Source of the DNA: Blastococcus colisei | GTDB taxonomy: Bacteria; Actinomycetota; Actinomycetes; Mycobacteriales; Geodermatophilaceae | DNA length: 64,000 bases | Reading direction: 5' to 3' | Assembly (NCBI RefSeq): GCF_006717095.1 | Contig: NZ_VFQE01000001.1 | Coordinates: 62,001-126,000, forward strand | Shown here: positions 41,059 to 43,674 of the stretch, piece by piece | How the letters are laid out: each line of letters begins with the position of its first letter | How positions within the stretch are numbered: the stretch's first letter is position 1 | Program-made: the position numbers and the translations under genes | Notes under the pieces: generated by a model | Databases searched by the model: none | Seen by the model: only the letters and a program-made list of their open reading frames with translations | Told to the model about the DNA's origin: nothing

Positions 41059-43674
41059 GTGGCGGTGGCCGACGACTTCAGCCGGCCCTCAGCGACGGCT
41101 CCGGCCTACGACCGGCAGCCGCCGCAGGACATCCCCGCCGAGCAGTCGGTGCTCGGCGGCATGCTGCTCAGCAAGGACGCGATCGCCGACGTCGTGGAGG
41201 CGCTCCAGGGTCCCGACTTCTACCGGCCCGCGCACCAGGTCATCTTCGACTGCATCCTCGACCTGTACGGCCGCGGTGAGCCGGCCGACGCCATCACCGT
41301 CGCCGCCGAGCTCAACCGCACCGACCAGCTGTCCAAGATGGGCGGCGCGGTCTACCTGCACACCCTCATCGCCTCCACGCCGACGGCGGCCAACGCCGGC
41401 TACTACGCAGCCATCGTGGCCGAGCAGGCCGTGCTGCGGCGGCTGGTGGAGGCCGGCACCCGCGTGGTGCAGCTGGGTTACGGCGCGGCCGGCGGCAAGG
41501 GCGACGTCGACGACATCGTCGACCGGGCGCAGCAGGAGATCTACGACGTCACCGAGAAGCGGATGAGCGAGGACTACTCCCGCCTCGAGGACATCCTCCA
41601 GCCGACCATGGACGAGCTGGACGCCATCGCGTCCCGGGGCGGCGTCAGCCGCGGCGTCCCCACCGGCATCCGCGACCTCGACGAGCTCACCAACGGCCTG
41701 CAGGCCGGCCAGATGGTCGTCATCGCCGCTCGACCCGGTGTGGGCAAGGCGCTCGCCCTCGACACCCCGATCGCCACACCCACCGGCTGGACGACGATGG
41801 GTGAGGTCGCCGTCGGTGACCAGGTGATCGGTTCCGACGGCCGGCCCACGGCCGTGGTCGCCGCCACCGACGTGATGGCCGACCGTCCCTGCTACGAGGT
41901 GCACTTCTCCGACGGCTCGGTGATCGTCGCCGATGCCCAGCACCAGTGGCTGACCGAGACCCGTGCCAGCCGGAAGTCCGCCCAGGCGGCCGCTACCGGC
42001 TACAACCGCTACCGGAACCAGCGCACCTTCGCCGAGGTCCGCACCACCGAGGAGATCGCGCGGACCGTCCGGTGCGCCACCAAGGACGCCCGCCTCAACC
42101 ACTCCGTCACCAACGCGCTGCCGCTGGCACTCCCAGAGGCCGACCTGCCCGTGCCGCCGTACGCCCTGGGCGTCTGGCTCGGCGACGGCACGTCCGCGGC
42201 CGCCCAGTACACGAGCGCGGACCCGGAGATCGCCGTCTACATCGAGGCGGAGGGGCTGCTCGTGGAGCCGACCGGCGTCGACCGGCGGTACTCGCTGCGG
42301 CTACCGGCACACGCGCCGGTCCAGCCCCGTCGCTGTCCGATGTGCGGCGAGTCGTTCGTCCCCCGTACGTCGCAGGTGCAGACGTGCGGAAAGGCCTGTG
42401 GTGCCACGCTCCGCCGCAGCGGAGGCGTCGGCCGTCAGGCCACCTGCCCCGACTGCGGTGGTCCCTCGTCCGGCATGGCGCAGTGCCAGTCCTGCCGCGA
42501 CGACCACGGCACGGTCAAGGCGCTCCTCCGCGGGCTCGGGGTGCTCGGCAACAAGCACATCCCGACCGCATACCTGCGGGCCTCCGTGGCGCAGCGGCGG
42601 GCGCTGCTGGCCGGCCTCCTCGACACCGACGGCACGGTCGCGCCGAGCGGCGTGGTCCAGTTCGGCGTCACCAGCCGCCGGCTGGCCGAGGACGCCCGTG
42701 AGCTCGTGGCCAGCTTGGGCTATCGCGTACGCATGACGACCAAGCGCGTGCGAGGTCGGACCGAGGACTCGTCGACCTGCTACACCCTGACGTTCAGCAC
42801 GGACGACGAGGTCTTCAAGCTCGAGCGCAAGAAGATGCTGCACAAGGAACGTGGCGCTCGGACGTTCACCGCCCGTGGCAGCAGGTTCATCACCGACGTG
42901 CGGTCGATCGCCAGCGTGCCCGTGCGCTGCATCGAGGTCGACGCGGAGGACCACCTCTTCCTCGCCGGGCGCAGCTTCATCCCGACGCACAACTCGACGC
43001 TCGGGCTCGACATCGCGCGCTCGGCGTCGGTGAAGCACCACCTGCCCGCCGCCATCTTCAGCCTGGAGATGAGCAAGCACGAGATCACCATGCGTCTGCT
43101 GTCTGCCGAGGCGAAAGTGCCGCTGCACCACATGCGCGCCGGCTCGCTGTCGGACGAGGACTGGTCGAAGCTGGCCCGCCGGATGGGCGAGATCGCCGAT
43201 GCGCCGCTCTACATCGACGACTCACCGAACATGACCATGATGGAGATCCGAGCCAAGGCGCGACGGCTCAAGCAGCGCAACGATCTCAAGCTCGTGGTCA
43301 TCGACTACCTGCAGCTGATGACCTCGGGAAAGCGGGTCGAGAGCCGTCAGCAAGAAGTGTCGGAGTTCTCGCGTGCGCTCAAGTTGCTGGCTAAGGAACT
43401 AGAAGTGCCAGTAATTGCGATGAGCCAGCTGAATCGCGGTTCTGAACAACGGCAAGACAAGAAGCCGATGCTTTCTGACCTTCGCGAATCCGGTTCAATC
43501 GAACAAGATGCGGATATGGTCATGATGATCCACCGAGAAGACATGTACGAAAAGGAGTCTCCGCGTGCCGGAGAGGCCGACATCATGCTGGTCAAGCACC
43601 GCAACGGCCCGACGGCGAACGTCACGGTCGCCTTCCAGGGCCACTACAGCCGCTTCGTGGACATGGCGAACTGA
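41059..43674 (+). CDS. dnaB: Replicative DNA helicase DnaB with an intein
   Basis: The hexameric replication-fork helicase. The precursor has 871 residues; removing a 415-residue intein (231-645) leaves a 456-residue DnaB. The N-terminal domain starts near PPQDIPAEQSVLGGMLLSKD. The RecA-like domain has Walker A ARPGVGK, split exactly from STLGLDIARS by the intein, then KLVVIDYLQLM (Walker B), VPVIAMSQLNRGSEQ, and DLRESGSIEQDADMVMMIHR. GTG 41059 has a GGAGGAAAA site. Codons at 43381-43560 have unusually low GC. Splicing must occur to make an active ATP site. Confidence 0.97.
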   Translation: MAVADDFSRPSATAPAYDRQPPQDIPAEQSVLGGMLLSKDAIADVVEALQGPDFYRPAHQVIFDCILDLYGRGEPADAITVAAELNRTDQLSKMGGAVYLHTLIASTPTAANAGYYAAIVAEQAVLRRLVEAGTRVVQLGYGAAGGKGDVDDIVDRAQQEIYDVTEKRMSEDYSRLEDILQPTMDELDAIASRGGVSRGVPTGIRDLDELTNGLQAGQMVVIAARPGVGKALALDTPIATPTGWTTMGEVAVGDQVIGSDGRPTAVVAATDVMADRPCYEVHFSDGSVIVADAQHQWLTETRASRKSAQAAATGYNRYRNQRTFAEVRTTEEIARTVRCATKDARLNHSVTNALPLALPEADLPVPPYALGVWLGDGTSAAAQYTSADPEIAVYIEAEGLLVEPTGVDRRYSLRLPAHAPVQPRRCPMCGESFVPRTSQVQTCGKACGATLRRSGGVGRQATCPDCGGPSSGMAQCQSCRDDHGTVKALLRGLGVLGNKHIPTAYLRASVAQRRALLAGLLDTDGTVAPSGVVQFGVTSRRLAEDARELVASLGYRVRMTTKRVRGRTEDSSTCYTLTFSTDDEVFKLERKKMLHKERGARTFTARGSRFITDVRSIASVPVRCIEVDAEDHLFLAGRSFIPTHNSTLGLDIARSASVKHHLPAAIFSLEMSKHEITMRLLSAEAKVPLHHMRAGSLSDEDWSKLARRMGEIADAPLYIDDSPNMTMMEIRAKARRLKQRNDLKLVVIDYLQLMTSGKRVESRQQEVSEFSRALKLLAKELEVPVIAMSQLNRGSEQRQDKKPMLSDLRESGSIEQDADMVMMIHREDMYEKESPRAGEADIMLVKHRNGPTANVTVAFQGHYSRFVDMAN
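41749..42993 (+). mobile_element. DnaB intein, class 3, with LAGLIDADG endonuclease and zinc-ribbon-like insert
   Basis: In-frame, 415 residues, inserted in Walker A between GVGK and STL. The first residue is Ala, not Cys or Ser. Trp is at position 67 (ADAQHQW), Cys at 394 (VRCIEVD) and Thr at 413 (PTHN), the WCT pattern of class 3 inteins with the same 19-residue Cys-Thr spacing as the phage Bethlehem type. The homing endonuclease motifs are ALGVWLGDGTS (about 139-149) and LLAGLLDTDGTV (about 285-296). Between them, residues 196-249 hold C196/C199-C213/C217 and C233/C236-C246/C249, two zinc-ribbon-like groups. The C-extein begins with Ser. GC content matches the host. Confidence 0.93.

Follow-up and report, generated by a model that had tools for sequence, protein, structure and literature searches.

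The DnaB helicase gene in the window (i.e., the whole 64,000-nucleotide stretch of Blastococcus colisei DNA that was analyzed) is interrupted by a class 3 intein, and the LAGLIDADG homing endonuclease of this intein holds eight cysteines arranged like two zinc ribbons. Sequence comparisons make it probable, at roughly 75%, that these cysteines are an accessory DNA-recognition module that also stabilizes the endonuclease fold. The module would help the endonuclease bind the intein-less dnaB P-loop sequence, and this binding would let the intein home. The eight Cys would form two zinc-ribbon or treble-clef-like units inside the endonuclease (i.e., between LAGLIDADG motif 1 and block D) and would stand apart from the splicing machinery; we infer zinc binding, contact with DNA, and cleavage by the endonuclease. 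Intein accessory domains are already known, and the zinc-ribbon version is provisionally a new one; among the papers listed in searches of the open-licence literature, none was found to describe an intein with such a zinc-ribbon module.

A class 3 intein in the P-loop of DnaB

The genome carrying the window (G000) comprises 5.16 Mb in 4 contigs. Pfam identifies ssb and then rplI upstream of dnaB, and by our own reading the frame between these two genes looks rpsR-like. Both the N-terminal and the C-terminal helicase domains of DnaB were found (Pfam) in the dnaB ORF, which is interrupted by the 415-aa intein (window positions 41749-42993). The intein splits Walker A between Lys and Ser (...ARPGVGK / STLGLD...), as members of the DnaB P-loop (DnaBi1) group do, and this position is called site b in the mycobacterial literature. 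These flanking exteins bear out the original prediction that Walker A of DnaB is split. The features are as follows.

41059..41748, + strand: DnaB N-extein, 230 aa, ending ...ARPGVGK (sequence; Pfam)
41059, + strand: presumed start codon GTG, assigned from GGAGG upstream
41749..41973, + strand: N-terminal part of the splicing domain (residues 1-75), comprising blocks A and B and carrying A1, C48, and W67 (sequence; phmmer)
41890..41892, + strand: C48, which pairs with the catalytic Cys in the redox switch described in PMC6195587; Cys in 178/178
42160..42189, + strand: LAGLIDADG motif 1 (block C), YALGVWLGDG, residues 138-147, predicted catalytic D146
42334..42399, + strand: zinc-ribbon-like unit 1, C-x2-C...C-x3-C, residues 196-217 (weak match to Pfam DZR_2, below the cut-off)
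42445..42495, + strand: zinc-ribbon-like unit 2, C-x2-C...C-x2-C, residues 233-249
42550..42585, + strand: what we take to be block D, NKHIPTAYLRAS, residues 268-279
42604..42633, + strand: LAGLIDADG motif 2 (block E), LLAGLLDTDG, residues 286-295, predicted catalytic D294
42886..42993, + strand: C-terminal part of the splicing domain (residues 380-415), comprising blocks F and G and carrying C394 (codon 42928-42930), F404, T413, H414, and N415
42994..43671, + strand: DnaB C-extein, 226 aa, from Ser+1 (STLGLD...), with the stop codon at 43672-43674 (sequence; Pfam)

By its sequence, the intein is a class 3 member, and splicing via a branched intermediate at the internal Cys is predicted. It carries Trp at block B:12 (W67), Cys at F:4 (C394), and Thr at G:5 (T413); position 1 is Ala instead of Cys, Ser, or Thr; the intein ends in H414-N415; and the nucleophile is Ser+1. 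All of the positions originally predicted (i.e., Ala1, Trp67, Cys394, and Thr413, with a Cys-Thr gap of 19) were right. In phmmer searches, the solved DnaB inteins 6rix and 6riy matched at E values of 1.6e-41 and 8.4e-41, and 6bs8/6own (the M. smegmatis DnaBi1 sequence) matched at 4.2e-39 for the whole protein; the matches cover the two splicing parts (approximately residues 1 to 81 and 378 to 415). W67, C394, T413, and C48 are each conserved in all 178 distinct DnaB P-loop inteins compared below. C48, which the original prediction did not mention, and C394 correspond to the two Cys of the redox switch in M. smegmatis DnaBi1.

Eight cysteines inside the endonuclease

The intein scores above the Pfam cut-offs for LAGLIDADG_3 (33.7 bits versus 22.5; residues 282 to 352, E = 4.5e-8) and Hom_end (25.9 bits versus 21.1), which identifies a LAGLIDADG homing endonuclease. 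The eight Cys (C196/C199, C213/C217, C233/C236, and C246/C249) lie between D146 and D294, in agreement with the four Cys pairs that had been predicted between the two LAGLIDADG motifs (residues 196-249). Since none of 200,000 shuffles of the intein produced four C-x2/3-C pairs within 55 residues, the cluster is not a product of chance. The net charge of the ribbon segment is +6.3 per 100 aa versus -6.7 for the N-terminal splicing part (n = 96); at +5.3, the second half of the endonuclease comes close to the ribbon segment. In a comparison of 30 family inteins, the dN/dS of the ribbons (0.25) lies between that of the splicing and LAGLIDADG segments (0.19 to 0.20) and that of the linker (0.32); the ribbons are therefore constrained, slightly less than the catalytic parts.

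The double zinc ribbon family DZR_2 matched at 13.2 bits with the whole intein and at 17.5 bits with the segment, both below the curated cut-off of 27, and 21 of 31 relatives' segments matched it at E <= 0.1 (best, 4.7e-5). Profile searches of Pfam, PHROGs, and PDB gave weak or partial matches at best, so that no curated family was assigned to the ribbons; the top match was phrog_1333. The profile of this family matched segment 184-250 at an E value of 1.1e-5, and hhalign gave 95% over 52 of 76 columns, which cover unit 1 and reach into the beginning of unit 2. One phrog_1333 member is Mycobacterium phage Juniper1 gp55 (L379:331-825), annotated as a WhiB transcription factor (E = 1.4e-72), in which a WhiB domain is followed by a Cys module matching the intein ribbons. 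Two PHROGs that bear the name HNH endonuclease are matched by this Cys module as well (3.6e-10 and 1.3e-4), and the segment of a relative weakly matches the first of them (0.0021). With tblastn, the segment of the window retrieved two weak phage records (E = 0.04 and 0.09), and the segment of a relative retrieved 45; among the 30 listed, the best E value was 5e-4 and the others ranged from 0.01 to 0.04.

Loss of the ribbons together with the endonuclease

The 203 loci that we compared represent 191 distinct inteins (identical ones counted once; four ORFs are partial), and exclusion of the 13 with other flanks left 178 DnaB P-loop inteins. L201-L203 are placeholders of 10 bases each and contributed nothing. 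All eight Cys are intact in 96 of the 124 inteins with both catalytic Asp, in 4 of the 44 in which an Asp is lost, and in none of the 10 mini-inteins (i.e., under 230 residues). With the mini-inteins excluded, the Fisher p for Cys versus Asp state is 6e-16, a value that ignores kinship among related rows. Pair tests were made on the DnaB extein tree with 175 of the 178 rows, and the values are means over 200 pairings; C-exteins were cut before the second DnaB intein site, as longer stretches could run into a second intein. Among 24 independent pairs differing in the endonuclease, the ribbons changed in the same direction in 17.4, in the opposite direction in 0.0, and not at all in 6.5 (median p, 1.5e-5). 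Exclusion of the mini-inteins (165 rows) gave 21 pairs with 13.9, 0.1, and 7.0, respectively (median p, 1.2e-4; range to 0.0064). Pairs started from ribbon differences behaved similarly, with 17.1 same, 0.1 opposite, and 9.8 unchanged among 27 pairs, and with 12.8, 0.1, and 10.1 among 23 pairs when mini-inteins were excluded (median p, 2.4e-4; range to 0.039). The splicing-domain tree, with only 4 supported pairs, has too little branch support for such a test. Point changes point the same way: in 103 undeleted slots, Cys point loss goes with Asp point loss (2/6 versus 1/97; p = 0.008). Because the Cys are lost with endonuclease integrity while W67, C394, T413, and C48 stay, the ribbons track the homing endonuclease rather than splicing.

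The association has exceptions in both directions. Four Asp-lost inteins still carry all eight Cys, and 27 of the 124 inteins with both Asp carry 0 to 4 of them; one more lacks a single Cys. Fourteen both-Asp inteins lack every ribbon Cys, and 12 of these have fewer than 75 residues between the two Asp. Since the shortest Asp-to-Asp stretch among viral relatives (best 80 of 549) is 77 residues counting both Asp, we think that the endonuclease core has already been cut in those 12. Alternatively, the ribbon-less both-Asp inteins may represent a DnaB endonuclease that works without ribbons. Partial forms also occur, with unit 2 alone in six rows and four Cys in another register in five rows.

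Distribution and mobility

At E <= 0.001, the intein search matched 205 of 397 genomes of the order, 124 of 394 of the class, and 28 of 198 in the phylum sample; these counts take in weaker, other inteins, and the three genome samples overlap. In the part of the phylum sample outside the class, no unbroken 1-415 match was found, and some matches consist of two flanking pieces. Among named genomes, the best 80 of 563 confirmed matches were analyzed (i.e., the strongest, a sample biased to full-length forms). The closest relatives in this sample are from Trujillonella, Blastococcus, and Geodermatophilus (84 to 86% identity), and full-length forms also occur in Rhodococcus, Nocardia, Mycobacterium, Kineococcus, Amycolatopsis, and others. 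All 80 follow a DnaB-type GK and end HN|S. The original prediction had pointed to related genera as the place to look for the same insert, and the full eight-Cys spacing was found in 78 of these 80. In 30 family inteins including that of the window, seven of the eight Cys are present in 30/30 and C196 in 29/30. A ribbon profile search of 61 genomes of the order, which scored at most 95 first-look candidates per genome, gave matches in 7, once each, in frames of 880 to 1291 aa and inside inteins that the intein search had already matched.

Ten of the 10 tested loci without this intein have an intact GK|S; four of these uninterrupted P-loops are from genomes of the window's own genus (G186, G261, G344, and G375). 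The C-extein pieces of 13 tested family genomes are 94 to 100% identical to that of the window. For G328, the extein falls with the window's genus and the intein with another genus. In AU tests, a same-genus clade was rejected on the intein tree (p-AU, 0.011), and the grouping of the intein was not rejected on the extein tree (p-AU, 0.106); in both cases the groups were chosen after the trees had been seen. Given the uninterrupted P-loops within the genus and the rejection of the same-genus clade by the intein tree, the intein looks mobile.

Two further observations concern other inteins. In two of the uninterrupted genomes (G261 and G344; L375-L378), the alignment to the C-extein is interrupted after about 173 residues by a gap of about 1.25 kb, which would fit a second intein at another DnaB site. 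In the genome carrying the window, a second intein (L002; G000:C1:2527115-2527300) interrupts a protein, presumably radical-SAM and Rv2578c-like, at a C-x3-C-x2-C motif. It begins with Cys and ends HN|C and is thus apparently a class 1 intein.

Contents of the slot between motif 1 and block D

Of 83 loci of viral relatives (the scan covered the best 80 of 549), 80 were analyzed, with L034, L356, and L357 left out. W, C, and T are present in 80/80. By our own patterns, 65 of the 80 slots contain no Cys-finger, 14 contain C-x3-H...C-x2-C, and one contains ribbons; a Cys-finger module is therefore not required by this enzyme type generally. Four inteins have FtsK-like flanks (L085-L087 and L178; host judged from the flanks alone), and the slot of L178 is short. 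The slot of L085 matches HTH_23 above the Pfam cut-off (25.5 versus 24.6 bits); HTH_23 stays under the cut-off in L086 and was not found by Pfam in L087. The slot of L032 looked HTH-like, and no model supports this assignment. Some inteins, DnaB and FtsK-like ones among them, have about 90 additional residues inserted between block B and LAGLIDADG motif 1 (L062, L063, L085-L087, L129, L134, and L178).

We read the slot in class 3 inteins as an exchangeable site for DNA recognition. A broader proposal, to which we give somewhat less than even odds, is that DNA-binding cassettes (i.e., double ribbon, single Cys/His finger, helix-turn-helix, or none) are swapped in this slot and retarget homing among P-loop genes. 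The ribbon cassette would then have made the DnaB lineage successful in Actinobacteria, and the mycobacterial DnaBi1 "sensor" inteins would be relics.

What the ribbons may do

Two roles for the Cys clusters had been offered at the outset, and they fared differently: guiding DNA binding by the endonuclease is favored by the co-loss and by the slot contents, whereas the evidence is against metal sensing by splicing as a conserved function. The premise of the latter, that zinc reversibly inhibits a mycobacterial class 3 DnaB intein, matches the portion of PMC7360933 consulted, in which zinc reversibly inhibits splicing of M. smegmatis DnaBi1 (an intein without a homing endonuclease) and inhibition of an equivalent M. 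leprae intein is described as well. This related precedent, together with purifying selection on the ribbon segment, would fit a built-in zinc site by which DnaB splicing senses metal. However, the intein in the published case has no endonuclease, and zinc binds there at the catalytic Cys (its ligands are C118, the V119 backbone, and the Y128 hydroxyl); no built-in zinc site is therefore needed. Moreover, the ribbons disappear with endonuclease decay while the checked splicing residues remain, and the ligand set is incomplete here, with C394 present and Tyr128 replaced by F404 (Phe in 30/30 of the family sample). We consider a metal-sensing site very unlikely and, given the co-loss with the endonuclease, reject it as the main function of the ribbons. 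According to the part of PMC6195587 consulted, a Cys48-Cys118 disulfide forms in the mycobacterial intein and C48 mutants fail to splice. Given C48 and C394, redox or zinc effects on splicing could occur without the ribbons, and zinc inhibition through C394, independent of the eight Cys, is possible.

Zinc ribbons are frequently structural, and a purely structural, zinc-stapled insert that makes no DNA contact would explain the co-loss equally well; the existence of one-ribbon forms also suits it. Such an insert nevertheless seems unlikely in view of three indirect indications: the basic charge of the segment, the other DNA-binding-type motifs that fill the same slot in some relatives, and the phage proteins with homologous Cys modules, which are named as a transcription factor and as HNH endonuclease. 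It is also conceivable, at very long odds, that the intein has been domesticated, with the endonuclease and ribbons binding the dnaB gene or its mRNA in autoregulation. The wide presence in Actinobacteria would accord with this, yet a homing cycle would be expected to produce just the patchy presence, the uninterrupted alleles within one genus, and the repeated decay to mini-inteins that are seen. An accessory DNA-recognition module of the endonuclease remains our preferred reading.

The analysis separates two ideas previously linked to each other, namely, the inhibition of DnaB splicing by zinc and the presence of a Cys-rich insert with a zinc-binding appearance. The inteins at this one site form a graded natural series (i.e., double ribbon, single ribbon, none, dead endonuclease, and mini-intein), which makes it possible to study the gain, exchange, and loss of DNA-recognition modules by homing endonucleases. 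The same series bears on the possible origin of the mycobacterial stress-responsive mini-inteins. The analysis also suggests a natural zinc-module scaffold for meganuclease specificity.

Comparison with known systems

The M. smegmatis and M. leprae DnaBi1 inteins (6bs8 and 6own are from M. smegmatis) share with the present intein the insertion site, the W/C/T set, C48, and the catalytic Cys. In contrast, the DnaBi1 type has neither endonuclease nor ribbons, M. smegmatis DnaBi1 being a 139-residue splicing core, and it has V119 and Y128 where I395 and F404 are found here. The Cys-pair module is common to the intein and phrog_1333/Juniper1 gp55; in the phage protein, however, it is joined to a WhiB domain, without an intein or a LAGLIDADG endonuclease.

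Parallels in architecture are TliVMA, PhoVMA, PI-TkoII, PI-PfuI, and the DRR of PI-SceI, which likewise combine HINT, a LAGLIDADG endonuclease, and an accessory module (PMC8966425, in the portion consulted, as for the next four statements). Two VMA-b inteins also occupy a P-loop site. In these two, the accessory domain follows the endonuclease and precedes the C-terminal HINT part, whereas the module described here is Cys rich and lies between the LAGLIDADG motifs. Intein accessory domains are diverse and include HTH folds, and grafting them altered cleavage; that of one intein lowered cleavage specificity and, when isolated, added no DNA affinity. Both mentions of zinc in that text refer to engineered nucleases. 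The phage homing endonucleases I-TevI, I-HmuI, and I-Bth0305I are GIY-YIG, HNH, and EDxHD enzymes instead of intein-nested LAGLIDADG enzymes, and according to the part of PMC3943268 consulted, small zinc or HTH modules extend their DNA contacts, as we propose for the ribbons of the DnaB intein.
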